From assembly GCF_949628265.1 (NCBI RefSeq), contig NC_088787.1:16110501-16174500 (forward strand): a DNA stretch of 64,000 nt. Reading direction: 5' to 3'. The notes under the pieces are model-generated. The model was not told the DNA's origin. It saw nothing but the letters and a program-made list of their open reading frames with translations, and did not search any database. Made by a program: the position numbers and the translations under genes. Every line of letters begins with the position of its first letter. Within the stretch, counting starts at the first letter, position 1. Positions 4,303 through 50,200 of the stretch are shown in pieces. This DNA is from Cloeon dipterum (taxonomy: Eukaryota; Arthropoda; Insecta; Ephemeroptera; Baetidae).

Positions 4303-7300
4303 TTAACCTGTCGAAGATCCACTAGCTTCCCCATCAGTTTCTTGTCTGTGCACCATTCTAGTGTTGAGGTTTATCACTAATGGAGCGATTTTTGTTGATT
4401 GTTGCGACGATGACAGCGAGTTCTGCAGATTTTGTACAATTTGCTCGACTCGACGCCTTTTCTTCCCAGATGTGGACTCACTGGGCATTCCTGTTTCGCT
4501 ATCAATGACTTGAAGCCCGGCTTCTTCTGGAGACATAGTGTAAAAGCTTTGCTTGTATTGAGGGTTTTCTGGTCCTATCTGGAAATTATTTCTAGGCGTA
4601 ACTTCAATGGATGATTTACAAGATGTTAATTACCTGGTGCTTTTCAAACAGATGCCGTCTTAGCGACTTTCTAACAGAGTACGCTTTACTGCATAGAAGA
4701 CACTTCATGTGCTTCACTCCACTGTGTGTCATGACATGAGCCCTAAGCCTCGCCTGTTGAGAAAATTTCTTAGGGCAACTGCAAAAGTCAAAAAGTAGAA
4801 TGAAAATTAAACTTTGGGTGTTTGCCACGGAAATGTCTCACATTGAACATTGAAAGGACTTGTTGGTGGGTTCGTGTACAATAGACACATGGCGCTGCAA
4901 ATATTTTTCAGAGTTGAAGCCCTTTCCACATTGAGGACACACTACCTGGGTTTGACGGTTGTGTATGATGCGGTGCTCTTTAAGAGCAAAACTGTTGGTG
5001 AACATCTAAATTTGTGCGACATTCCAGATTAGAAATAGGCTATTAGATATATTTAGTGGCATTTAGTGGCATACCTTGTTGCATATTTCACACTCAATCA
5101 AACCTTCCCCTGTGTGTTTCCTAATGTGGTATTTAAGTTTCTGAAAGGATGTGAATTTCAATGAGCATAATATTAAATATAATATAAAAAAACTCCCTAC
5201 CTGTTTCTTTGAGAAAGTTTGTCCACAGTATGGACAACTGCAGGTTTCTTCCTTTGTGTGAACTCTGATGTGGGAATTGCATGCGCCTTTGTCAGAGAAC
5301 TTTTTGTCACAGAAGGTACACTGATAGGGCTTTTCTCCCGTGTGGATCCGGATATGACGGATGAGGTTTGACCTCTGTACAAACTCCTTTGGGCAGTGTG
5401 GGCATTTGTGGCGCGGACCATTGTGAATCAAAAGGTGCTCATTGTAGCTGTCTTTGCGCTGTTAAAATGCAAAAATTACGAAATGAACGTAAGGTACATT
5501 AAATTCTTTGACTAGCAGCAGTTAGCTGTGTCTACGGCTAGCTGCCGCCAGCCGGAGCTAGCTCATTTAGCTAGCTGACGCTAGCAGTAGCTTGTATTCA
5601 GCCAGCCAATACTTAGTCAGAGCATTTAATGTAGAATAACCTGACACAAATATTTTATATATACCGTAAATTCCTTCCCGCAGTGTTCACATTTGCTGAT
5701 GCCAGTTCCTGTGTGCAACTGTCTGTGTCCATACATCCCTGATTTACTGGCAAACCCCTTTCCGCATTCTTCACAGTGGTAAGGACTTTCTCCTTCATGA
5801 TCTAATGTGTAATGCAGTTTCCTTCCATGAAACCATTTAGTAAGTTGAATGATCCACCATAGTTTAAAGTAATTCACCTGTCCTCTTTTGTGTCAAACTT
5901 ATTTTGGCACAAACGACAGCAAAATCCAACTTTTGAGCTTTTGTTGTGCTTCATCCTGAAATGGATGGTGTAAGCTCTCTTAGTTAGGAATTCCTTGTTG
6001 CAAATGGAACAGTCTCGTTTCCTGAACTTGGAATGAACAGCCTGGAGGAACAGAATAAAATATTTTTACAATTTATTTTTATTTTTAAAACTTCATAAAT
6101 ACTTTCACGTGGTGGTTCAGAGTCTTCTTTGTCTTTAAAGTTGCGGAGCACAATCTGCATCTGTAGATCATAGCTCCAAGGTGCCAGGAACTAAAGTGAG
6201 TTCTCAACATCAAAATTGATGGCATTAGCTGGTGACAAATTTTGCACTTATACATAACTTTTGACTCCATTTTTTCTGAGGGATGACTTGAAGTTAAGTG
6301 CTTCTGAGAAATGGCCTGAAATTTTTGTGTTTATCCATAACAACATAGTTCAGGACAAGGTAACTTACAGTGCTTGTGCAAACAAACTGGCAAATAGGGC
6401 ACTGGTAAAAATTTTGTTGATCTGGGTGCTGCTCTAATTGATGTTTATCTCTGTCTTGATGTTCCTTGAATCTCACAGGGCAAAAGCGGCATTTGTTTCC
6501 CAGATGTGTGTGATCATTCTTCAAATGAGTCTTCAGCTGTCTTTTACTCTTGCATATGAATGTGCAAAGGTAGCATCCATATTCAGCTGTCTTGCAATCT
6601 GATTCGCTCTTTTTGTCCCACCCTAGTTTGTGTTCCTCGTTCAGGTGAAAGCATAGCTCCCGAGGGGAGACAAAACTCTTTTCCTCGCACAGCTCACACT
6701 CAATAATAGGATCGACTTCATCTGCATCATCGAAACTTGACTCAGATACACAGTCTACATCTTCAGGGTCCACGTCAAGGAGATCAATACCAAAATGGTC
6801 ATCAGGCTGCTCAAAGTCATCTTCTTCGGAGCTGGACTCGGAACTTGCAAAGAGATTCACCATGGGCACTAGGATCTCGTTGGTAAGTTCGTCATCGTCT
6901 GAATCAACATGCAGCTTGCTCAGGAAATAAAGGATTTTTTCATCCTTAACATTGTGCTCAGACATGAAGTGGTTAACAATAGAAGAGATCTCTTGAGTGT
7001 TGAATTTTTCTACGCACATGCGGCATGTGTACTCAGGTCTTACTAAAAAAGGATGTCTCATAGCACAGCTTTTGTGAAATGAAGTCAGATGTTCTTCGAG
7101 GTTCTCAGATACCTGAAAATAGTCATAGAGATTCTAGTTAAAAATTATATTGCTATTTTACCATTTGATCACAGCAAGGGCAGCGGTATAAGGAGTGCTC
7201 CCTTGCAAGGTGGTTGCCCAATTTTACTTCAGATGAGTATAACTCGCCACAGGCAACGCAAGGCAGAGAACTGTGTTCCCGTACCATGTGCAGATCTTTT

Positions 7301-7662
7301 GCTAAGCCAGAGGGAAATGTAATGCAGCATTGACAGCAAAATGACATCGATGCACATATAATCTCATGCGCCATCCGCAATGTAGGCTGATTTGTAATTC
7401 CATTGCAGACTTGACAAGAAGTGCTGGCAGAGGAAGTGGATGGTCTCTGAGAATCATAGGTGGATGCAGCACAGACACATGAAGTTGCGCACATGCACGA
7501 GCAGCACAGTCTGTCAGGAATGTCATCCTTAATTAAAGAACCCGTTTCTCTAAGCAGAAAGTCAGCGGCATCGTAAATTGAAGGTGAGAGCGTACTGTCC
7601 AGTTGCAAGCTGTGGTCATGGTCATCGTGAAGGGAGCTGCCGTCTCCTCCCGGCTGGAACAT
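4303..7662 (-). CDS. C2H2 zinc-finger protein, about 21 fingers, 895 aa
   Basis: Ten coding exons on the minus strand join in frame: 7662-7162, 7112-6369, 6315-6103, 6041-5878, 5821-5665, 5458-5201, 5140-5075, 5005-4842, 4778-4634 and 4578-4303. An in-frame TGA lies just upstream of the ATG at 7662 if the 5' UTR exon ending at 7993 is spliced on, which supports this start. I count about 21 C2H2 fingers. The first three are near residues 105-190, then comes a long acidic Ser/Asp/Glu linker (roughly residues 230-305), then fingers run almost continuously to about residue 800. Only a few have the classic HTGEKP-type linker. The tail is basic then Ser-rich (KKRRRVEQ). It is probably a nuclear DNA-binding regulator; target and orthologue are unknown. 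Several splice sites were chosen because they restore perfect C-x2-C-x12-H-x3-5-H spacing, for example 6315, 5005 and 4778. Confidence 0.88.
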
Positions 7663-7670
7663 GTCATTCC

Positions 7671-8698
7671 CTGTGGAAAAACCTCAATGTTATCTTTGTT
7701 ACAATGTACCACCGTATTTTGGAAGGAAAAAATAAATTTTCAATCATTATTATGCTCCGCATCATGAATCAAGCCGAGTACATAATTTGTATGTACATAT
7801 ATCTATGTAACAGCGTTGAGTAAAATTTAAATATCATACATATCATATGATACGAATTTTATTGATAGATACATACATACATATTATGAGTTAGAAATTG
7901 AATGCAAAAAGTTTTCTCAGTGACTAAGGAACTATTTGTTAAATAGAAATGAATGACCATGCTAGAAAATGAAATGAAATTACTAAAATTACCTCAATTT
8001 CACCCCAAGCATAATTATTTCAGCGCTCCCTCCTCCCAGCAACCACAACAAAAACAAAACAGCGGAGCGCAGAGCAAGACTGCGCAAGGACAGCAACTTG
8101 CTTGGCATTATGGCAATGCTGCCAACCTAGATTTGTCCTGTGTTAGAAAAATAATGTAAGTTTTCCTCACTGCTGGCTGTCAAGCCATGCCTTTCAAGTT
8201 GATTCCTGGCTCGTTTCTCGATCGAATATTATTAGGTTGGATAACCAGGTGGTGACGTACATGACGTGATGGTTTGGAGAAAAGGATAGCACTGAATTGA
8301 TTGGAGTGAAAATACATTGCAATGACTATTCGTTTCTCAAGTTTTGAACGCATTTCAAACGGTACATATAGATCATAAGTACGCCATGAGTTTACCCGAG
8401 TCGTACTAATTTACTCGTGACCGAAGAATTTGCACGTTCGGCTGGTTGGTCCACTGTAAAAGGTAATTTTTCGAGGGCAATGCGAGGTGAACACATATTT
8501 TCACATCTGGGAAATAGCTTGTTGTACAGCGTGTTTTACTTTAACACATGAAAACCATTGATTGCAACAACCTCTAACTAATACTTTCAGTCTTATGATA
8601 GGCTTCGTTCTTAAGTCTTTGCTATGGCTGGCTTGGTCTTGATCAATAAAACTGCATGCATTTTAAGGTGACGGCATTTCTGAAGCCCATCGCAGACC
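7671..8698. promoter_or_regulatory. Head-to-head intergenic region and 5' UTR of the zinc-finger gene
   Basis: This stretch separates the divergent zinc-finger (-) and VMP1 (+) genes. On the minus strand a donor at 7993/7992 (TTGAG then GTAATT) and an acceptor at 7671-7673 (CCACAG before GG) suggest a 5' UTR exon and a 5' UTR intron of about 320 bp. The zinc-finger promoter would then lie around 8.0-8.3 kb and the VMP1 promoter around 8.3-8.6 kb. A plus-strand reading frame at 7953-8159 is not credible as a gene. Confidence 0.45.
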
Positions 8699-11069
8699 AT
8701 GGGTGCCTCTAGTGTCAAGAAAAAAACCAAAAGTAGTAGGGTGAAGCACGAGGAACCAGTGACACAAACGAAAGAGCAAATCAAGGCTGAGCTTAAGCGA
8801 AGAGGGCTGAAGACTTCAGGCAATAAGATCGAACTGGTAATCAATGTGCCAAAATGCTTACCGCGCTCTCAAAATCTCAGACCTGCATTTTCACTTCTTG
8901 ATCATTGTACATAACACGCTCATATTTCAAATATTTGTTAAAGAAAGCTATGTTATTTATTTAATTTCAATATTATCAACATTTAACTTTTCATATTTTC
9001 CTGGTCTGCTATTAGCTGCGTGCTGCGTTTATCATAAAATCATAGCATTATTGAATAATATTGGTCAACTACTAAAATAAAACTGTTAGCACATGATTGT
9101 ATCACAATTGCTTTCAATTACGCTTTGGATTTTATTTCCTAAACGTAAGTTACTCTGTAACATCGCAAAATCGTGACAGATGCGTCAAACCATTTAAAGC
9201 ATTCCAACCAAACCTTGAGTCTGAAAAGCACACTTCATCAATTATGTATGTTGGTTTGTCGATTGATTTTTATTTTGTTTGCATGCCTGCATGTTTGCCC
9301 CTTGCCCCAATGCCCTTTATTTATCATAATATCATATTAAAAATGGCCTATACTGTTATTTCCATTGATCCACCTTTCGTAATATTATTGTTGAGGGGTA
9401 ATTGATTTCAATTTATACCTGTCTTATTTTCAGCTACAACGTTTGGAAAGTTGTTCGTCACCTTCAATGTCGGGAGTGTCTCGTCGTTCCAAATCTGACC
9501 CTCAGGTCAACGGGTCCACTAAACACAAGATGGCAATGGACCGAGAGGAGCTAAAAAAAGAGCGTGCCAGTCTTGTATTATGGCGTCACCCTCTCCGCAC
9601 TTTGTATTACGCCACTTTGGAGATGGCTCACTTTTTAAAGTCGTCCCTTCAAAGGTATGCATGAGTCACTGCTTCTTGTTTTCTTGCCTGGCTAACATTG
9701 ATCATTTTCAGGATGCTGCATCATAGAGTATTGATGACAATGGTTTTTCTCCTAACAGCGGCCATTGCTTTTGTAATTAACGTTCAAGGACCACACCAAA
9801 AGGTCAGCTTAAAATCGTAATATAAAACTCAACTCATTTTAAGATGAATGGAGTTTTCTGCTGATTTTAATTATTCAACCATCACAACAATTTAGATGTT
9901 CCACGAAGGCCCCTAACTCAAGGTTCTCAAATTTTAGGTCATAGAGCCATTCCTCAAGAATATTTGGTGGTGCGTGTACTGGCTTGGCCTGGGGGTCCTT
10001 TCTTCAGTTGGCCTTGGCACTGGACTACATACCTTCCTTTTGTATCTTGGGCCTTATATTGCCTCGGTGACTTTGGCCGCGTACGAGTGCCAAAGCTTAG
10101 ACTTCCCACAACCCCCATATCCTGATGAGATTATTTGTCCGGATCAGCCAAATCTCCATTGGGATGCCTCTGCATCTGTTTGGTCAGCTGTGCTGGCTAT
10201 AATGGCGAAAGTGCGTCTCGAGGCCTTTATGTGGGGCGCTGGTACAGCGCTAGGAGAGCTTCCACCCTATTTCATGGCCAGAGCCGCCAGGCTGTCAGGT
10301 GGAGCTGATGATGATGATGATGAAGACGACGAATTGAGAAACCTTGAAGAATTGCAACGGAAGCAGCTCAATCACGAAGACATGGTAAGCCAGAAGTAGG
10401 TAACAAAATATCTGTCAACATAACATTTTGTTACTTTCAGACCCTCTATGAGAGAGCCAAACTTGGAGTTGAAAAGATCATAGAGAGAGTTGGGTTCTTC
10501 GGCATTCTTGCCTGTGCCTCGGTGTGTTAATTTGTTTAATCCACTTATAAACATAATAAATTAAATCTTTCTGGCCACAGATTCCAAATCCACTCTTCGA
10601 CCTAGCTGGAATAACATGTGGCCATTTCCTAGTTCCATTCTGGACTTTCTTTGGTGCGACCTTGATTGGAAAAGCGGTTATCAAGATGCATATTCAAAAG
10701 CTTTTTGTTATTATTGCGTTCAATGAACCGTTGATTGAGGCTGCTGTGGCGATGCTAGCTAAAGTCCCTTATATTGGGCCGAAAGTTCAAGAGCCTTTCA
10801 AAGAATTTCTTGCCAGACAAAAGAGCAAGCTCCATAGGAAGGTTGGATCTTCGTCATCTAGTGACGGTCATTCAGTAAGTTCTGTTTACTGCTTCTGAAC
10901 TTTGTGCTAACTGTAACTTTATTTACAGCAAAGCTTCCTTGCATCTGTTTTTGAGAAGCTCGTTATTTCCATGGTGGTGTACTTTATCATCTCAATTGTT
11001 AACTCACTGGCTCAGGCGTATCACAAGAGAATTCATAAACAAGAAAATGCAAAGGTGGCCACAGACTAG
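8699..11069 (+). CDS. VMP1: Vacuole membrane protein 1 (VMP1/Tango5) with N-terminal SAP-like motif
   Basis: Seven exons give 470 aa: 8699-8836, 9434-9654, 9712-9802, 9938-10384, 10441-10521, 10581-10874 and 10929-11069. VMP1 is an ER multispanning lipid scramblase of the VTT/DedA class, needed for autophagosome formation, lipid-droplet and lipoprotein release and ER contact-site control. The family core is unmistakable: [15 protein letters not shown] (about residue 175), [16 protein letters not shown] (about 265), [19 protein letters not shown] (about 318-336) and [11 protein letters not shown] (about 360). Hydrophobic segments lie at about 122-144, 158-190, 342-378 and 430-450. An acidic Asp/Glu run near residue 282 follows the ARLSG motif. 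Odd feature: residues 22-52 match the SAP motif ([13 protein letters not shown] then KIELLQRL), split by intron 1. That part is not in the vertebrate proteins as I know them. A poly(A) signal AATAAA is at 11141-11146. Confidence 0.95.
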
Positions 11070-11337: not shown

Positions 11338-12329
<992 letters not shown>

Positions 12330-12641: not shown

Positions 12642-14918
12642 ATGGCTGACAACGAGGATGATACGGTGACCGGAGATCCACAAAATTATGATTTAAATCA
12701 AAAAGCAGATGGGCCTGCAAAAGCTCCTCTGTCTAAGAGGTGAGACCCAATACAACCGGGCTGATTTTTGTTAAATTTGTTTGCTCAAATCATTTGTAAA
12801 GACTTCCAAACTGAGCGCAATATTATGTATGCAACCCATGTGACTGACTTCTGAGGACTGTTTTGCATGTCATGTTTTAACAAATGTTAATGAAAATCTT
12901 GAAAAACACTGGAATCTTAATCTTAATTTTCCACAACGAATTTCAGCGCAAAGAAGAGGAGAAGGAAAAATGAAGCAGCGCAAGCCATTGAAGAAGCTAA
13001 GCAGGAGGAGGGCCGTGGCAGTATATCCATTGAAGGAATCAAAGCAGCAATGGAGATGCTAACTATGCAACACAAACCGGCAAAAACTCAAGAAGAGGCC
13101 CTACAAAAGCAATACCAATTTTGGAACACACAACCGGTTCCCAAGATGGGTAAGCCTTACACTTTCAACGTGTTTAGCTTTTGCTGATACTTAAAATGCT
13201 CGTAACTTGCATATACAGACGAGAAAATAACAAGCAATGAACCGATTGAAGACGATAAAAGTCTGAAGGAGATCAGACAAGAGTCATACTCGCTGCCAGA
13301 CGGATTCCAATGGGATACCTTAGACCTCAACGACCCCCTTGTTGTAAGTTTCAAAACAGTAATCATAATTTCTTTGTGAATTTACAAGTATAAATATATG
13401 TTCAGCTGACTGAGCTGTACACGTTGCTGAATGAAAATTATGTAGAAGATGATGACAGCCTGTTCAGATTTGATTACCCACAAGATTTCTTGAAATGGTA
13501 ATTGATTAGACAAATCTCGATAGACTATAAAGTTTGCATCACAATCCTTGACTTCATTGTGACGCTATTTTAGGGCCCTTCAACCTCCTGGTTGGCTGCC
13601 TCAGTGGCATTGTGGAGTAAGGGTGACAAAAAATAATCGCCTGGTTGGATTCATATCGGCCGTTCCAGCGTCCATCCGCATCTATGAAAAGTAAGGTTTC
13701 AGCAGCTTTAGTTACATTTTATTTGGAAATAGTCAGAATATTTAAATTTAAATTAAATAAATCTCTCTCTAAATCACTTATAACTATTTAAACTGGTTCT
13801 AATTGTTGCGTTGCATAAATTTAAGGCAGGAGCAGTTCTTAACTTAAACATATTTACAAAGTTGTACGCAAAGTTGAAACATGCATTAGTGTCAGATTAT
13901 TCATCCCTGATTTTATTGTAATTTCCAGAGTTCAGCGTATGGTGGAGATCAACTTCTTGTGTGTGCACAAGAAACTGAGGTCAAAGCGGGTGGCGCCTGT
14001 GCTGATCAGAGAAATCACCCGCCGTGTCAATCAGCAAGGCATTTTCCAAGCAGTGTACACGGCAGGAGTGGTTTTGCCAAAGCCGGTGGGTGCTTGCCGC
14101 TACTATCACCGCTCACTCAACCCGAAGAAACTGATAGAAGTCAAGTTCTCGCATCTTGCCAGAAATATGACTCTGCAGCGCACACTCAAGCTCAACAAAC
14201 TGCCCGACATGCCAAAGACCGAGGGTTTCCGTATTCTCACTCTCCAAGACTTGGACAAAACCCACGCCATTTTGGATAAGGTTTGTGTTTTGTAATTATT
14301 TAATACATGGCTTAATTGCGTAATTTTAGTATTTGGAGAGTTTTGATTTGGCTCCAGTGTTCTCGAAAGAAGACTTCAAACATTGGTTTCTGCCCAGAGC
14401 AGGAATTGTGGATGCCTATGTGGTTGAAAAGAACGGAAAAATCACAGGTGCCTATTATAATAATAATGCAACTCTTCTTTAAAACTTATTTATTTTGTAG
14501 ACTTTGTGAGCTACTACACTCTCCCTTCCACCGTTATGAACCACCCCATACACAAATCTCTAAAAGCGGCCTACTCATTCTACAATGTGAGCACCACCAC
14601 TCCTCTAATTGATTTGATGAATGATGCCCTTGTCTCAGCCAAAAACGTAAGATTCCTTTTAATGGAAGTAAGGTTTTCATTTTATTAATATGTCTCTCTT
14701 AGAATGGATTTGACGTTTTCAACGCCCTCGACCTGATGGAGAACAAAGAGTTTCTCAAGGAGTTGAAGTTTGGGAAAGGAGACGGTAATTTACAATACTA
14801 CCTGTACAACTGGCGATGCCCTGCCATCCTACCCCACAAGGTAAACTGCATTAACTAAGCAGAAATGAGTTTGTGAAATCAAATCTCTTTCTTTCAGATT
14901 GGTCTTGTACTGCAGTGA
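12642..14918 (+). CDS. NMT: Glycylpeptide N-tetradecanoyltransferase (N-myristoyltransferase)
   Basis: Ten exons encode 469 aa: 12642-12739, 12947-13149, 13219-13343, 13406-13497, 13574-13690, 13929-14280, 14330-14447, 14501-14646, 14703-14840 and 14898-14918. NMT moves myristate from myristoyl-CoA to N-terminal glycines of target proteins in the cytosol and at ribosomes. Both family signatures are present: [15 protein letters not shown] (about residue 218) and [16 protein letters not shown] (about residue 440). The chain ends IGLVLQ; in this family the C-terminal carboxylate acts in catalysis, so the tiny last exon of six codons is functionally essential. A polybasic segment ([10 protein letters not shown], residues 33-42) resembles the ribosome-targeting region of animal NMT. 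Single copy here, no defect seen. Confidence 0.97.
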
Positions 14919-16018: not shown

Positions 16019-18931
16019 ATGGTTCTCAAAATACGAAATCGTGATGTTGCGACCGAGGAGGATAGCGTCAATGCAGCTTTGCGAAGTATGTAGAACTGGT
16101 AGAACTTAAGTTACTCGATTTGGTCGAGTGGTACTACACTCATTGTCATTTATTAACTTCACACTCACATCATATTACTCTGTTGTAATGCAGTATGTAA
16201 TCATCTATATTTATGTAATAAAATTTATGATAATTGAAGGCGAAGGAGTCCAGGATATGCAAGACTTGAGCCTGGAAGAAAAGCGGCAAATCCTACAGGC
16301 AATTGAAAATTCCAAAGAAGATAATCAGCAAAAAGATGATTTTCTAGAGGCAACGGAAGATGTACCTGATGTTTCATCTACCACTATCGAGAAGAAAAGT
16401 GACGCCAACATTATTGTTCAGGTTGGAATGCCCCGAAAAATGAGGAAATCATAGAAAAATCATATACATAATCGAGGAAACCAGAGATAACGTTAAGATT
16501 AAAATTTGTTTGTTAAGCATAAATTAAAATGTAAAGTATGTATTACATTTATTAAATTGTGTAACAATGACATTACAAAAATCAAGCTGGTATTTCGTTG
16601 TCTTCATAATCAGTGACAGTAAAACATCTGATCTTATGCGCTTGTTACAAATAATTATGACGATAGAAAGGTGGTAATTATGTGTCAGAGTTGGGTAAAT
16701 GTTAAGAATTGTATAATCACATTGACACGTCGCGGTTTGCTGGGCTATAGTGAAATTGATTTCTTATTCTTGCAGATAGATGATAGCACAGATGATTTGA
16801 TCATCTTCAATGCTGAAGATGGAACTGATAGTAGCTCCGGAACAAATGAAATACAAACTTCCAACACATTTGAAGAGAAGCAGGCTTTCCTTGCAAATGA
16901 TTCACGATGCATACTTCAAATGACCAACCACTATGATCCAAACGTGAATGTCAAACAGAAGCGGCTGATGGACTTTAACGTATTAGACCATCCTACAGAG
17001 GATCAAGTGATCTCATTTTATGAAGAAAGACTGAACCAACTAAGAGAGAAACGTCGCAATATTTCTTTGAGGTAATAAAACTGTTTGGTTTTTATTTTGA
17101 TAAACATGTTCCTAATACGTTTTAGAAGTACATGGCATTTCTGCAAAGGAAGTAGCCACACTAGAGAAGAGCATTTCAATCTCGTAAAAAAAGAAATGGA
17201 CGATCTAGCTACCATGTCAGCAATGCAACACCTCATTGATTTGCGTTCTGACATCATTTCCTGTGACAACTTTCATTTCCAAAACAACGACACACCAATT
17301 TACAAAGTGCTTCCATATGGAATTGTCCCAAAGGAGATACCATACAGTCAGCTTTCTGCTGCTAATAAAGAAACTGCCTCAGCAAAAGAGGAAAATCAAG
17401 ACTTGAATAAATCTCAACCTCCGACTAGATCCTCCCTTGCCAAAATAGCAATCAAACCTCGCGTTGTAGAACTGCATGACAAAGTTGAAGATCAATTCAA
17501 ACCAGGACCAAGCAGCAGGGGAAATTTTTCTCCTATTCGTGACAATGATGAAAATTTGAACACAGAGAAAAATTCAGCTACTGGCGTGCTATGCAAGGAA
17601 ACCAAAACCGAATGTGACAAATCAACTGACTTAGTTGATTGCCCCCTGTGCACATCATATTTTTCCAAATCAAGCATACAAGTAAGACATTATTTCCTGA
17701 CAAGACCAATGATTACTTAAAATGTGAATATTTTAGGAACACTTTGACTTGTGCGAGCAAAGCAGAAACACTGAACTAGTGGATGGATGGTAATGTGTCA
17801 AGTATATGAAACTCGTTTACAATTTTAATAAAAATATTGGTTTTAGCTGTCCATTTTGCAATATAGAGCTACCAATAGAATCCTTGAGAGAGAAGCACAT
17901 GACTAAATGTTTGAGTAAACATAAATCAGGAAAGCTGGCTGTACCTGTTTTTTATGGTGAGATTTTATCAAAACAGTTTGAATTAATTTGTGGAGTGTTC
18001 CATTAGTTAATTGAAGTAGCTTACAAGCACATTTCTAGAATTGGGATTTGGAGACAATTCACGATGTATTTTTCTATGCTTGCTTAACTTCTTTGTATCT
18101 AATGGACGTGAATCACACACGCGCAAATCCAAGACTCCGGAGTCACACTTCAAACTGTCTGTTTGTCTAGCCCGCAATATATTCCACACACCTTCTAAAC
18201 GGTTTAATTGGTATAAATTCTTGGGGCGTATATTATTTTCAGAATCCTATTTTACTAGACGACTTGTTGAATATTTAAGGCCATTATACATGCTAAAGTA
18301 TTAATACAAAGATTTTAAGCTAAATGTTGGGCGGAAATCATTATTTTTGCAGAAGTAATATCTGTTACGATGTATATAATATAGTACAATCTTTTAGTGT
18401 CTTAGAATTTCGTGGGAGCATTTTTTAAAAGAAAAAATTAACGAGCAACAAATTTTTTATTAATTCAAGTATAATGAGGAAAATATTTCACTGTTTTAGC
18501 AAATCAAACTTTTGATGTATTCATATAATTCAACTCTTGGCATCTAAGACCTGAAGAATTTCTAGAGAAGTATTAATTGTACTTAACTGAATATATGAAG
18601 GGCTCAAATTATTAAGTCACACCCATGCTATTTTACAAACCTGACAGTACAATGTTCAATTCAATTTTTTTATTTTATAGCATGGTCAATACAGAGAACA
18701 GGAGTAGGTTACTCTTCCGTATAATAAAATCGCCATCTAAATTAGAACTTAGAAGATTTAATACAGCATTAAGTGACACTAAACCAGTTGACTTAGTGTG
18801 TTCCACGTGTTCCAGGTGCCAAAAGACAAGCAGATCAAGGGAATGAAATAATTAGCGACTCTGAAGGGAGTGAGCAAGGTGAAGAACCTCCAGTAAAAAG
18901 ATTGTTCACCACAAGCGCATTTAACAAGTAA
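16019..18931 (+). CDS. UIMC1-like: RAP80/UIMC1-like ubiquitin-binding protein, copy A
   Basis: Seven exons give 459 aa: 16019-16085, 16240-16421, 16776-17071, 17126-17681, 17737-17789, 17847-17956 and 18816-18931. RAP80 recruits the BRCA1-A deubiquitinase complex to K63-linked ubiquitin at DNA breaks. Evidence here: a UIM at residues 35-50 (EEKRQILQAIENSKED, with the Ala-x3-Ser core); SIM-like hydrophobic-acidic stretches DDLIIFNAEDG (89-99) and EIISDSEG (432-439); a segment from W185 (WHFCKGSS then REEHFNLVKKEMDD) that resembles the Abraxas-interacting region; and two C2HC fingers (C354, C357, H369, C373 and C386, C389, H402, C406). The order UIM, AIR, paired C-terminal fingers matches RAP80. 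The last intron (17957-18815) is the weakest join: phase fits, but reading on from exon 6 into the intron meets a stop at about 18,004, so a shorter isoform is possible. The acceptor at 16240 has a weak pyrimidine tract. Confidence 0.75.
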
Positions 18932-19291
18932 CAGATAGCATACATGTAAGAATATATTCTTTGAATGCAATTTCTAAGTTGGCTTATCATTTATCAGATT
19001 CCCTGGATACATTGAACTCATAAGATATTTTGCCATTTAAATTAAGAACAGCAAATTAATTCAGAAAAAATTAATGAAAACTTATCAAATCAGAATAGAT
19101 AACCTTCCCTGGTGCTTCAACATCTCTGTTGTAACAATCAATTTCGACCACATAATCCTGCTTAACTTTGAAATGTATCTAATTATTAGACTTGCTCCTC
19201 TTGGTTGGCGGCATGTAACATTTCTTGCTGTGAATATCTTCTGTGCAAGGAGAAACATGTGCAATTTTTTCATGGTTAGATATATGATTTC

Positions 19292-21625
19292 TCAGTTACC
19301 ATTTTTAGAAGATTTCCCTTGCTTCAATCGTTTGCAGTATGCAGCCAATTCAACGCCATCTTCTCCTTCACTCTCCCACTCGAACACTAAAGATTTCCTG
19401 ATTTCTATATTGTTTCAAAAATACATTAATAAAAACAAAGACCCGAGATACATTTTCATACCTTCTTTTGAGAGCATATTTGGCTTATCATTCTTCTCTT
19501 GACATTTCTTCAATTGAGACTGATGCAGTCTCTTTGGAATGGCCCCTAGCTTGAATTCTTTCTCTTTGCTGTGTTCAGCTGAGAGAACGCCATCTTCCTC
19601 ATCACTCCCCCACTCCAGTGCCAAAGATTTTATGATAGCTGTTGTTTCGCAAATTCAGTAATAAGAACTAAAACTGAAGATAAAAATTTCTACCTCCTTT
19701 TGAGGGATTGCCGGATCCACCATTCTTCTCACGACACCTCTTCGAGTGAGACTCGTGCATACTTTCTGGAATGGACACACCACAGATGCACCTAAGGGTA
19801 GATCACAATGCAAATATTTAGTTTAAAAAGTTTACAACAGTAAAGCTTGTTGTGGACAAATTTGTTTGAATACAAAATCACTTTCTACTATATCAGCAAA
19901 AACATGCGGAATTAACATTGTAAGATGGAACAAGATTAGGAGACACACCACATTGCAGGTTCAGTTGCACACAAATATTTGCTCACCTTAAATACTGCTC
20001 CTCCGAGTCTTCAGACTTGTCATCTTCAGCAGAGACTTGGCACTCAAGTGAATGCTCCTAAATAGAGATAAAATCAATTATTTTCACCATGTCTGCAGAC
20101 GTATATAAGTTTATTAAATCTGTATCATTTCACCTCTAGTTGTATAGGGTTGATCTTCGCATTGCACTTTGGGCATTCAATTGGTTCCATTGTTTCACGG
20201 CGTGCTGGCAGAGATTGAACTTTACCAACCATGGAAAGTCCTGATGGGCCAGCCAAATTTTGTCTTAGGTCTCTGCCTCTGGGAGATGTCTGTGGATGTC
20301 TGCGGTAGTTGGAATTTTTGTCCAAATCCACACCATCTTTCAAGCTTAAGAGGCCCACGTTTTTTACGATGGCCCTTTGAGTGATATCCATACAAGCTTG
20401 CAATGAGTTCCTGGAATTCGATCAGTTTACACTACTTTGCATAGCTCATTTTAACAGCTAAAATACTTTGTAGCTGGAGTGAAGCACTTGGCAGAAGTTG
20501 TGTGAGTATTGTTGAAGCGCAAAACATCTTGATAAGGAATTTCAACGGCATCAGCAAGGATATCATCATGATTGTACGCTAGAGATGAAATGCCTTCTTG
20601 CCTAGCAACTTGGAACGAGTAGTCCATTTCTGTGAGCACAGCATCAAAGTGCTCTTCTCTACTCAGCCCAGTTGCTGAATCATATTGCCAATTCAACCTG
20701 AAAAAGAAGACACCCATGACATCATCAGCTGTTAACATATGATCTAACCAGGAAATAACCTTCTACTTTCATCCTTCCTGTTTCTAATCAACAGAAGGTC
20801 CTGATCAGACTTCGCATAGGACACAAAATTCGTAATTTTGCAATCCATTGACGCTTTGAAAGTTCTGAGTTCATCCGTGCTTTGATATTTGCAATCACGC
20901 GACTGTTCATCTTTGGCCTTCTTGCTCTCCAAATAGAACTGACTGGGACCTCCATCCTAAGACATTTTCAGATTTTACCATGTTAGAATGACAATTTATG
21001 ACCAATATATACGCAAAACAATTTGACAATCGCATAATATGTCTGATTGCTGTATATTATAATGGTTGTTTTTCAGGATTCCATTTCTTATTAAAATTGC
21101 TTGTCAGCCTGAGAGGGACGCAAGGAAGGTTTTTAGAAGAATTGAAAATATTTCCTCGAACCAGGATTAGCTAATGCAAGGGTAAGAAGAATATAAGTGA
21201 TTTTATTAAGGATGATAATATGTTAAGGAAATCTTAATAAACAAAAAACATTGACCTTTTTTGGAGATAAGCCTTCTGCATTTCTTCTCTTCTTGGACTT
21301 CTGCAGGTCATTTTCAGATTCCTTCAAGGCTTTCAGCAATTGCTTTTTTTCGTGAATAGTGCAACCCGATACGTCTTGTCCCATGGCTTTGCAAGTCAAA
21401 TAGAAAAACACTTTTAAGATTAAAGAAATTTAATATATTTTTACCTGCAAGTTCCGTATCAGTAGCATTTTCATCATCACTGGCCCATGCTGGATGGGTT
21501 GCATTGGTGATTCTAGACGATTTGCTTCGAAGAACACGAAGTGGTGCAACACTGACGTCAACATCTAACTTCTTCTTTGCGGCCCTTCTTTGAAACGATG
21601 GCAGGTATTCTTCATCAACGTTCAT
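19292..21625 (-). CDS. UIMC1-like: RAP80/UIMC1-like ubiquitin-binding protein, copy B
   Basis: Nine minus-strand exons give 491 aa: 21625-21445, 21386-21256, 20956-20760, 20697-20467, 20410-20134, 20057-19987, 19791-19694, 19638-19462 and 19404-19292. It is a paralogue of the gene at 16019-18931. It shares a UIM (residues 72-87, EKKQLLKALKESEND), the block WQYDSATGLSREEHF (from W173), a C2HC finger (C326, C329, H341, C345) and a second finger (C364, C366, H378, C382). Splice phases follow copy A, with one extra intron splitting the large AIR exon. The second finger has CxC instead of CxxC. Exons 7, 8 and 9 look like diverged repeats of each other, ending with Cys/Lys-rich and then acidic segments. 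A splice-acceptor-like TTTGTCACAG sits 6 bp upstream of the chosen ATG, so a 5' UTR or additional coding exon may exist upstream. The last codons also look like a donor (AATG then GTAACT), so more exons could follow. Confidence 0.7.
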
Positions 21626-46405: not shown

Positions 46406-47271
46406 TATTTTATTTATTTAAAGAAACACCAATGGTGTACAACAGATATAGACATGCATAAATATTAAAGTACACTAGCACGCATGAGAGTCAATGGGAT
46501 CTTCTTGCATTCCAAAAAGTGGTAGAACTTCACATATTCATCACAGTATACACATTTGCAATCGAAACCGGCCTTACAATGATATTTCTTGTTAGTACAG
46601 TAAACATAATGATAATCGTGACAGGCGTGCCTGGTGAAAACATGTCTATTTAGAAAACAGGCATTTTTCCAGCCCGGATCGCCCATTGCAGGGGTGCCAT
46701 AGAAATCCCCATCGATCTGGGAGAGCTTGAAAAGTCTATTAATAATAAAGTTATTGTAAGCAGCAGTTTCTGAGAGTGAGAATTTCTTAAGAAGATCATC
46801 AACAAAAAAGTCAGTGTCAGCAAGCTCATATGCTAGTCTAGATTTCATAAATTTTGACAGTGCTAAGGCTTTTTTGAGAAAACGAGATTTTGCAGATTCT
46901 AACTTATTTAAGTCTGTTAAGGTAAGATATGGCCAGATTGCCTGTATGCCGTAACTAGCGATTGGTGCTATGGCTAAATTAAAAAGCTTTAATGCTGTAC
47001 TGACAGATGATTTGGTGAGAGATTTTAATTTTGATGTAGCGAAAATAGCGGCTCTTACTTTCCTATCCACATGTTTAGAGAAAGAGAGACCTGAGGATTG
47101 AAATGTGACACCCAAATATGTAAACTCTGTAACAAAATCAATTTTTTCATCATTTATAGAAAAAGTGTCACTCTTCTTTAGTCTGCCTTTGCCCTTGTTC
47201 CTGAATTTTAAAATTTTACATTTGGCCAGATTTAATTTTAAGTTACGTTTGCCGAGGTAATTTGTCAAACT
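46406..47271 (-). mobile_element. 5'-truncated LINE insertion with 14-bp target-site duplication
   Basis: A minus-strand insertion of about 866 bp is flanked by the identical 14-mer GTGAAATTTAATTT at 46392-46405 and 47272-47285. The reading frame is open from the truncation point (about 47268) to a stop at 46465 (267 codons, no internal stop). It encodes the part of an ORF2 that follows the reverse-transcriptase catalytic motif: NLKLNLAKCKILKF, then YLGVTFQSSGLSFSKHVDRK, and at the end a Cys/His motif C-x2-C-x7-H-x3-C (CVYCDEYVKFYHFLEC). The endonuclease and catalytic core are missing. The 3' end carries a short UTR and a TAAA-type A-rich tail. An intact frame and a perfect duplication indicate a recent, dead-on-arrival insertion. 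Confidence 0.88.
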
Positions 47272-47285
47272 GTGAAATTTAATTT

Positions 47286-50200
47286 GAATATGAATAATTT
47301 GAGATTCACACTGAATCTAATTTTTCGTTTTTTATATTGCATTAAATTGTGGTTAAATAAGGTCTACCGGGAAGAACCAGCCAACTATTCTATGACATTT
47401 GCTCCTCTTGTAATGTTTTCAATAATTTTGTATCTCTAAAATGAAATACTGCATATATGCGTTTCTCGCAAAATCAAAGCAAATATTTATTCGATGATGC
47501 GATTGATGAACAGTTAAAATGGTCTCTACTCTAGTTTCCAAAACCTGTTTTTGAGTTAAAAACACATTAATTATTAATCCTTTGTGTTGTGATTGTATTA
47601 GAGGCCGCTGTAATTTAACAAAACCAATTTTCGAAAGGATTTTCCACCTCATTACATTTTACATCCCTCAGGTAATGCAGTAACGATTTCTTGGGTAAAC
47701 AAACGTGCGCACCCAACGGTATCAATATCACTGGCGGCCTCATCTTCAGCATACAAAACAGACTGACCGGCTGGAAGAAAGGGAGCGGTCGGACGAATTT
47801 TCTCTGCTGACGCCAGTTTTATACTTTCTCGCTATTCTGTATTGGCCGGCGGCCCGTGTTTCAGGCCTCGTCAGCTCAAAGGCGCAGGAAGTCTGGACGG
47901 AAGCGACCATATTCGGCGCGTTTTGGATTTATATTTTCTGAGAGCAACGGCATCAGTTACAGTTGAACGCTCGCAGCGTCATAAATTCCAACATCAAAGA
48001 GGAGAGAGAAAGACACACACACATTTCGCTGCCTCTTGTGTTCGGAGCGCAAATTTTTAGGCATCCTTTAACGGCGAGTGATTTTTAATATTGCGCACAC
48101 GTCGCGCCCGTGCCGGACCTTTGCTCTTTCTTTTTCCGCATTTTCACATTTCGCACCCTTGATTGCCTTGTGGAATTTATGTACTCTCGGCTCGTCCGTG
48201 TGCGACGCGTATGTGCGTTAAACTACATCATTAATGGGGGAAATAACAAAAAGAATTCGCCCCGAGGAGAATCATTATGACGGACACTAAATCTCTTCAA
48301 ACTCTTGCGTCGAGCGTGCCGGAGAATATTGGCAAAGTTTTCGGCCCATCAAGCGTTATTTAATAACCACACATCGCGAAAAGCAGGCGAAACTCCGCTT
48401 CCGTTTATGTAATAATATTGTTATTAACACACGGCTTTAATGTTGGTAGCAATATGCTTTCCAAGCAAGATTAAATCGAACTAATCTGCGATAAATCTCG
48501 TTGCCACCTGACGTCTGTTTATATTTTCTCAGGCAGATGGGGTGGAGTTTAATCAAATTAATCGAGTGTTGAAAGGGAATTCCGTGAAAGGTAGTTCCTT
48601 TCGTATCGCTCTAACTTTGTTTGACCTTTACGCTCGAGATACGTTTCTCGTCAGGGAATATGCGAAAAAAGTGACGTCCAAGCTGCATATCACGCAGGGT
48701 GAAAACAAAAATATATTCCATTCTCGAGATCCCATTTTCCGACGCATGAATAAACAGAGCACGCATGATAACCTTTAAAATTGAGGCTGTGAAATATTTA
48801 AACGACAGCGCAGCATTTCTTCGTCGGGCAGACAGCGCCAGCTAGACTACAACGCCCATTTCCGTGCAGTTTTTGTATGTGTCTGTCCGTGAAAAATTAA
48901 TCTCGCAAGTGGAAGAATCCCCGAGATGCGTGTTATCTTGAATGATGGGCTGAAACGTGTGCAATCCTCATCACCTCGCAAGGAGATGGGGCCGTGCGCG
49001 CGTTACATTTCTGACACATTTCCACCCAAAATCACCTTGTGCTCAGGGAGCAAGTCTCAAGTCGAGCGGAAAAAAGCTGTCCGGCCCATTTTTACTCGCG
49101 CGGATAGAAATTAAGCCGCGGGGACGCCGGCGGATGGGGGGGGGGGCGAACAAAGCATGCGAAAAAGTCTTTGAGCACGGCGGGCGTGAGCGATTTGATT
49201 AATGTGCAAATGAGCTGCCGCTGCCGAGGTTGGCCGTCGAGCAAAAATTTCGCAGGTACTCAATCTGTTAAGAAACTTTTGTGCCTGCCAAGACGAGAGT
49301 TAGATGAAAGAGTGCGGCGGGCGCAATTAAAAAGAAAATCCCCATCAGCGTAAAATGATTTTCCTGCAGCGGCGGCGACGACGGCGGCGGCTACAGGGCG
49401 ATTCGTTTAAAAATCGCTCTGCCAGACTTTTGGCCCTTTGTAAGCGAGCTTTTTCTCGAAAATAATTATCCGCCATCACAGAGCGACGCGGTGAATAATA
49501 ATAAGGAGGGCTGTCTAATTAAGTGCAGCGAGTGCGATGGGAATTGTCCGCCGCCTACCGAATAAAAGCCTCGACTAGACTTATGGTGTGTGTATTGTGT
49601 GTGTGTTTGTTCAAATGCTAAATTAAATAAGATTCATGCGTGTGCACGGCAGCATTGTCGGTTGCCAGCCTAATAAATTATAATCTCTAGGCGCGGTGTC
49701 GCCTTGCAAGTTCGTGAAGTGAAATTTATTTGCTCGTCAGCGGCCTACGCGCTTACATGTTCCACCCCGATGTGCCAGCTTTCGGGGATGGGATTTGCCC
49801 CGTTTGAAAGCGTTCGATGTGGGCGGGCGGAGGGCTTCTTCGTGATATTAAATCAAAGACTAAACCAGGTTTTGTGGTAATGTCTGTCGCCCTAAAATGC
49901 TCAAAGAAAGTTTCTTGAGAAAATTCATCTGATTGGTGGCTATTTTTGAGAATATTGTGAGCGCCATGGCAGTCTTTGATGACTATCATCGTTTATGGAA
50001 TTTTTATAATTCTTTCAAATATATTAAGGGATTGTAAATATCATTTTCTACACTACCCTATAATTTTCATTATAAACAATAAACAGATATTTAACATGAA
50101 AATCAAAGATGTTGTTCCAAGTACAATATGTAAGAAAGTTTTTTAGTGCTCGAAATAACTTTTAAAATCAGGCGATTAATTCTAATCCAGTAATCCAATG

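Follow-up and report, generated by a model that had tools for sequence, protein, structure and literature searches.

Two converging paralogous genes in Cloeon dipterum and their possible kinship to the ubiquitin reader RAP80

Whether insects possess counterparts of RAP80 (UIMC1), a ubiquitin reader of the BRCA1-A complex, is a question raised by two multi-exon genes of Cloeon dipterum (Ephemeroptera, Baetidae), which converge at positions 16019-21625 of the analyzed window, a stretch of 64,000 nucleotides on contig NC_088787.1 (16,110,501 to 16,174,500); gene A lies on the forward strand and gene B on the reverse strand. Two publications date RAP80/UIMC1 to the emergence of the vertebrates or shortly before it (PMC6849265, PMC3969565), no obvious RAP80 orthologue is reported for Caenorhabditis elegans (PMC9910797), and a review lists BRCC36, KIAA0157, BRE and MERIT40 as the insect BRCC36 complex, with RAP80 unnamed there (PMC7692841). 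Among the matches listed in the open-licence PMC literature, no description of an arthropod RAP80 was found. Our results indicate that A and B are paralogues sharing a C-terminal pair of Cys/His fingers, and that their sequences make kinship to RAP80 plausible, albeit unproven; they are referred to here as RAP80-like, not as RAP80 members.

Both genes were modelled by hand. Gene A (16019..18931, forward strand) comprises 7 exons (16019-16085, 16240-16421, 16776-17071, 17126-17681, 17737-17789, 17847-17956 and 18816-18931) encoding 459 amino acids, and gene B (21625..19179, reverse strand) comprises 10 exons (21625-21445, 21386-21256, 20956-20760, 20697-20467, 20410-20134, 20057-19987, 19791-19694, 19638-19462, 19404-19300 and 19240-19179) encoding 509 amino acids. 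GT-AG borders were present at 15/15 introns, the frames are continuous across exons and open from ATG to stop in both genes, and the converging arrangement described in the initial annotation of this locus was thus borne out. The last exons of both models are supported by their similar C-terminal tails, PPVKR in A and PPTKR in B (PP[VT]KR). The stop codons are separated by 247 bp (18932..19178), and not by the 360 bp originally given. Since no AATAAA was found on the forward strand (18932-19400) nor on the reverse strand (19178-18701), it may be that the 3' ends of the A and B messages overlap, or that variant signals are used.

A and B are paralogues derived from a local inverted duplication, as the initial annotation had proposed; this is sustained by their alignment score and by their shared introns. 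The Smith-Waterman score of A against B was 128, compared with a mean of 45.4 (standard deviation 6.7, maximum 81) among 1000 shuffles, and four MAFFT runs yielded 100-106 identities over 368-374 aligned positions. The intron phases are 1,0,2,0,2,1 in A and 1,0,2,[2],0,2,1,[1,1] in B, where brackets denote the additional B introns, and a same-phase B partner exists for 6/6 A introns. Four of these six pairs occupy an identical alignment column in all four MAFFT runs, the fifth pair lies 2 columns apart, and the last pair 0, 6 or 67 columns apart, varying by run. The shared phases had therefore been read correctly, whereas the single extra B intron originally described turned out to be three, one of phase 2 in the middle of the gene and two of phase 1 tied to an internal duplication. 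Further, both proteins display the same order of elements, namely a helix resembling a ubiquitin-interacting motif (UIM), a W/REEHF block, two Cys/His fingers and the PP[VT]KR tail. The low identity suggests that the duplication is old. When the genome (190 Mb, 10 contigs) was searched exon by exon, a third copy was not found; A and B miss each other in this search, so an equally diverged third copy may exist. Weak genome matches were obtained for A at C1:41906915 (E 0.79) and C1:42276107 (E 2.28), and for B at C1:34195105 (E 0.77); the first of these was rejected as a further copy of A, since by eye it resembles a zinc-finger reading frame.

The UIM-like helix corresponds to LSLEEKRQILQAIENSKED in A (residues 32-50; 16266..16322, forward strand) and to CTIHEKKQLLKALKESEND in B (residues 69-87; 21307..21363, reverse strand), and is conserved between them. 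Each is the only match to the UIM consensus in its protein, with 0.2 matches expected by chance in A and 0.25-0.33 in B, while human RAP80 presents four, corresponding to both real UIMs and two others. Pfam reported no UIM in A or B, and its RAP80_UIM family matches human RAP80 (E 1.7e-33) and neither A nor B; however, the Pfam miss is weak evidence, since the general UIM model stays below its cut-off in human RAP80 as well (16.7 vs 21 bits). With a chance-prone consensus and a silent Pfam, the case for a UIM rests on the conservation between A and B and on the core block of the helix, whose best placement on human RAP80 is UIM1 (P 0.03). Following this helix, A also contains a stretch resembling a SUMO-interacting motif (SIM), IVQIDD (residues 81-86, split by intron 2; 16413..16784, forward strand), expected by chance 0.04 or 0.24 times depending on the pattern. 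No SIM consensus was detected in B with four patterns, which also miss the known human SIM; of the SIM-like acid stretches ascribed to both proteins, the one in A is retained as a weak candidate and the one in B is not.

In the C-terminal region, both proteins carry two C2HC fingers, as RAP80 does. Those of A are C-x2-C-x11-H-x3-C (finger 1, residues 354-373, split by intron 4; 17640..17754, forward strand), a pattern expected about 0 times by chance, and C-x2-C-x12-H-x3-C (finger 2, residues 386-406; 17848..17910, forward strand), which falls within the match of the A/B profile to the UBZ4 of RAD18. Those of B are C-x2-C-x11-H-x3-C (finger 1, residues 326-345, split by intron 5; 20040..20175, reverse strand) and C-x1-C-x11-H-x3-C (finger 2, residues 364-382; 19734..19790, reverse strand), the latter probably degenerate. 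The spacing C-x2-C-x11-H-x3-C is common to finger 1 of A and of B, to both human RAP80 fingers and to RAD18, and the fingers resemble known UBZ4 domains both in spacing and in similarity (RAD18 UBZ4, E 1e-4). Finger 1 of A has an Asp two residues after the His, which is absent from the B fingers. A helix Asp of WRNIP1 contacts Arg42 of ubiquitin (PMC4370504), and by analogy the Asp of A probably sits at the corresponding place.

These features make A and B probable carriers of ubiquitin-binding modules. It is unlikely, in our judgment, that A and B instead represent an insect-specific nuclear family without ubiquitin binding, with a chance helix in place of the UIM and C2HC fingers of an ordinary structural or nucleic-acid-binding kind. 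Such a family would account for a UIM consensus expected 0.2-0.3 times per protein by chance and unreported by Pfam, and for the nature of the Pfam finger matches, which are mixed and below cut-off (CEP104_ZnF, Di19, DUF6980, aRib and others, taken here as generic finger or helix likeness; zf_UBZ, E 0.0025, below its curated cut-off, with a fragment containing finger 1 of B; and sub-threshold IBR and Prok-RING matches with the A finger fragment alone). Neither A nor B has a match above the curated cut-off of any Pfam family, and NCBIfam yielded no match for either at E up to 10. An insect-specific family of this kind would not account for a UIM-like helix well conserved between otherwise diverged copies, with a core that lands on UIM1 of RAP80, nor for the RAD18 UBZ4 match at E 1e-4.

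Given its C-x1-C pair, finger 2 of B may not hold zinc normally. Moreover, B contains an internal duplication of two 44-residue units (19355..19775, reverse strand; units 19775-19589 and 19543-19355) spanning exons 7-9, each composed of the second half of finger 2 plus the acidic tail and constituting a symmetric phase 1-1 exon unit. The units score 105 against each other (maximum of 48 in 2000 shuffles) and are identical at 93/132 bases, with proportions of synonymous and non-synonymous differences (pS and pN) of 0.45 and 0.26; this duplication is younger-looking than the split between A and B. The finger 2 Cys pair, one residue short, and the copied finger half, devoid of the first two cysteines, could be taken as signs that B is a decaying copy or a wrong gene model and that only A is functional. 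We regard this as very improbable, for all introns between the ten exons of B are GT-AG and its frame runs open for 509 codons, its intron positions agree with those of A, and pS exceeds pN in the repeat.

Regarding kinship to RAP80, the placement of the UIM core is accompanied by further likeness in the fingers. The best placement of the A/B finger-1 block on human RAP80 is finger 1 (0/2000 shuffles as good), and the whole finger pair aligned with that of human RAP80 better than nearly all shuffles (1/1000 as good for A, 0/1000 for B), bearing in mind that the Cys/His spacing is lost on shuffling, so that any UBZ4 pair would score well. Simple scores place finger 1 of B closer to finger 1 of RAP80, and finger 1 of A at about equal distance from RAP80 and RAD18. 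The finger region is also what hhalign selects when A and B together are compared with human RAP80, at E 0.0025 and with a probability of only 11.7%. A better RAP80 candidate was not seen in the genome search with human RAP80, whose only match, at C1:14811461 (E 1.24), consists by eye of C2H2-like finger frames and was not taken as RAP80.

Between helix and fingers lies a shared central element, the W-x-F...REEHF...EMD block of A (residues 185-207; 17133..17201, forward strand) and the W-x-Y...REEHF...EMD block of B (residues 173-195; 20622..20690, reverse strand), with REEHF and EMD identical in both and the longest identical A/B run, of five residues, located within it. No relatives of this block were found in Pfam, and its PDB matches (n=8, best E 0.4, mostly RAF kinases) were rejected as chance. 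The initial annotation had considered this block as the region docking on Abraxas; after three kinds of comparison with the Abraxas-interacting region (AIR) of RAP80, this assignment was rejected as unsupported. The AIR references were two mammalian sequences only (human and mouse), so that a diverged AIR could be missed.

A number of results weigh against kinship to RAP80, the AIR comparisons among them: against the human AIR, 797 and 824/1000 shuffles were as good as the blocks of A and B, the best ungapped placement of the block on RAP80 was UIM1 and not the AIR (P 0.08), and in the profile comparison the AIR windows scored 9.0-10.5, against 14.5 for the top RAP80 window (82 windows). As for the helix, in addition to the silence of Pfam described above, a longer A/B UIM block was not significantly placed (UIM2, P 0.13; UIM1, P 0.27), and a second UIM, which would form a tandem as in RAP80, is absent from A and B by pattern. 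The fingers, overall, match RAD18 better than RAP80: the A/B finger-pair profile had 25 PDB matches up to E 10, headed by RAD18 (E 9.9e-5 and 2.6e-4), with a lysine-biosynthesis protein in third place (E 0.0076), RAP80 in fourth (E 0.14) and WRNIP1 in seventh (E 0.27); finger 2 of both A and B is nearer to RAD18 in simple scores, and the ungapped finger-2 block does not fall on finger 2 of RAP80 (rank 4, P 0.95). The whole-protein A/B profile had 7 PDB matches, RAP80 not among them; full-length similarity of A and B to human RAP80 was not significant (67 and 48/1000 shuffles as good), and a genome search with human RAP80 as the query recovered neither of the two genes. Best profile matches in an unrelated family, which the initial annotation had put forward as decisive against its own reading, were not obtained in those terms, as the nearest match is RAD18 UBZ4, which is another ubiquitin-binding finger and not RAP80. 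Of the RAP80-like description, the UIM core, finger 1 and the order of elements are supported, and the AIR, the second UIM, the placement of finger 2 and the full-length similarity are not. The annotation as a whole was confirmed in part: the pair and its element order hold, while the gap size, the extra-intron count, finger 2 of B and the SIM in B had to be revised.

Comparison with known systems illustrates the same division. Human RAP80 (PDB 9sqy chain I) resembles A and B in having an N-terminal UIM-type helix and a C-terminal pair of UBZ4-spaced fingers in the same order; it differs in having two UIMs instead of one, a SIM before the UIMs (in A, and only there, the SIM-like stretch comes after the helix), an AIR to which the middle block of A and B has no similarity, 38 residues between the fingers as opposed to 12 in A and 18 in B, and one gene instead of two. 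The UBZ4 of RAD18 (PDB 2mre, 5vf0) shares C-x2-C-x11-H-x3-C with A and B, as well as an IPES motif with finger 2 of B. The RING and SAP domains that RAD18 carries were not reported by Pfam in the whole A and B proteins at E up to 10. RAD18 has a single UBZ4, in contrast to the two fingers here. Finger 1 also aligns with the UBZ4 of WRNIP1 (PDB 3vhs, E 0.27), where the helix Asp likely has its counterpart in finger 1 of A; the AAA ATPase domain of WRNIP1 was likewise not reported in A or B.

It is quite possible, at clearly under an even chance, that A and B combine UIM and UBZ4 as readers of another pathway, in the style of RAD18, WRNIP1, SLX4 or the Fanconi system, which do not bind the BRCC36 complex and whose likeness to RAP80 is convergent. 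The best finger match being RAD18 UBZ4, a central block without AIR similarity and the absent full-length similarity to RAP80 are all consistent with this; nonetheless, RAP80 shows the same succession of a UIM, a conserved middle block and two UBZ4 fingers, and neither Pfam nor NCBIfam reports in A or B a RING, SAP, ATPase or nuclease domain that would link them to another UBZ4 family.

The complex that a RAP80-like protein would serve was recovered in part. In the exon-by-exon search, the C. dipterum genome was found to encode BRE, with 4 exon matches and a best E of 3.4e-14, MERIT40, with 2 matches and a best E of 4.2e-13, and BRCC36. For the latter, one exon matched at E 0.007 and another at E 0.85, jointly reaching 42.2 bits against a cut-off of 23.1, and a neighbouring exon has an HSHPH motif (Pfam JAB, E 1.8e-8). 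Near the MERIT40 gene, the opposite strand holds a C2H2-like zinc-finger frame (L025 264-683 (+) and 1144-1938 (-)). Adding to the points against a RAP80-like role, neither Abraxas/ABRO1 (Pfam PF21125, human ABRO1 residues 1-267 and the GWYxFRR pattern) nor BRCA1 (human BRCT query) was found; given the weakness of an exon-by-exon search with human queries, these misses are not evidence of absence. Four places matching the GWYxFRR pattern were discarded as Abraxas, as none resembles that gene and a backwards control pattern also gave 4; similarly, the one match of the human BRCT query (E 0.26) was not taken as BRCA1.

Integrating these findings, we tentatively favour, with confidence that comes close to even, the reading in which A and B are ancient paralogues acting as adaptors, that is, single-UIM RAP80-like readers that target the BRCC36 complex. 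Neither has a recognisable enzymatic domain, and each adaptor would combine an N-terminal UIM, a central block and a C-terminal UBZ4-type finger pair. The UIM and the UBZ4 fingers would hold ubiquitin, the central block would dock on the BRE/MERIT40/scaffold arm, and A and B would in this way recruit the BRCC36 deubiquitinase to ubiquitylated chromatin. The two UIMs of human RAP80, placed on a rigid helix, are described as selecting K63 chains (PMC7692841), and BRCA1-A as a dimer of pentamers. As A and B have one UIM each, a preference for K63 would not come from a tandem UIM; it could arise from two subunits paired in a dimeric complex, or from the UIM and the UBZ4 of one chain. The sequence differences between the copies, chiefly the finger 1 Asp and the SIM-like stretch of A, suggest split roles, in which A, with its SIM-like stretch and finger 1 Asp, would be the main ubiquitin/SUMO reader, and B, with its degenerate finger 2 and duplicated acidic tail, a drifting or specialised partner. 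A bolder version, which we consider unlikely, is that the BRCC36 targeting subunit predates the vertebrates and that two single-UIM paralogues within one dimer rebuild the double-UIM ruler in trans, with A as the ubiquitin/SUMO reader and B as a tuning or competing partner.

What would matter here is orthology to RAP80, not the duplication. If true, an insect RAP80-like pair would date the ubiquitin-targeting arm to early animals, and it would provide a natural experiment on the need for two UIMs per chain in K63 reading; should the link to the BRCC36 complex fail, A and B would remain an unnamed insect UIM-UBZ4 family.

Regarding the neighbourhood, upstream of A lie a gene for an N-myristoyltransferase (Pfam NMT, E 8.4e-29) and an exon of the 4Fe-4S ferredoxin type (13843-14295, forward strand, and 11702-12247, reverse strand), the Pfam Fer4 matches of the latter being below cut-off; we take this exon to resemble NDUFS8. 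Two other frames had no Pfam match at E up to 0.01: one at 9938-10399 (forward strand), which presumably resembles VMP1/TMEM49, and one of 283 amino acids at 46465-47316 (reverse strand), presumably similar to the end of a LINE-type reverse transcriptase. At 6294-7683 (reverse strand), two open frames rich in Cys/His fingers and acidic stretches gave a sub-threshold C2H2 Pfam match only. Elsewhere in the genome, odorant-receptor exons of the 7tm_6 family, a family that points to an insect, were recognized; of 25 candidates scored, 5 matched at E<=0.001.

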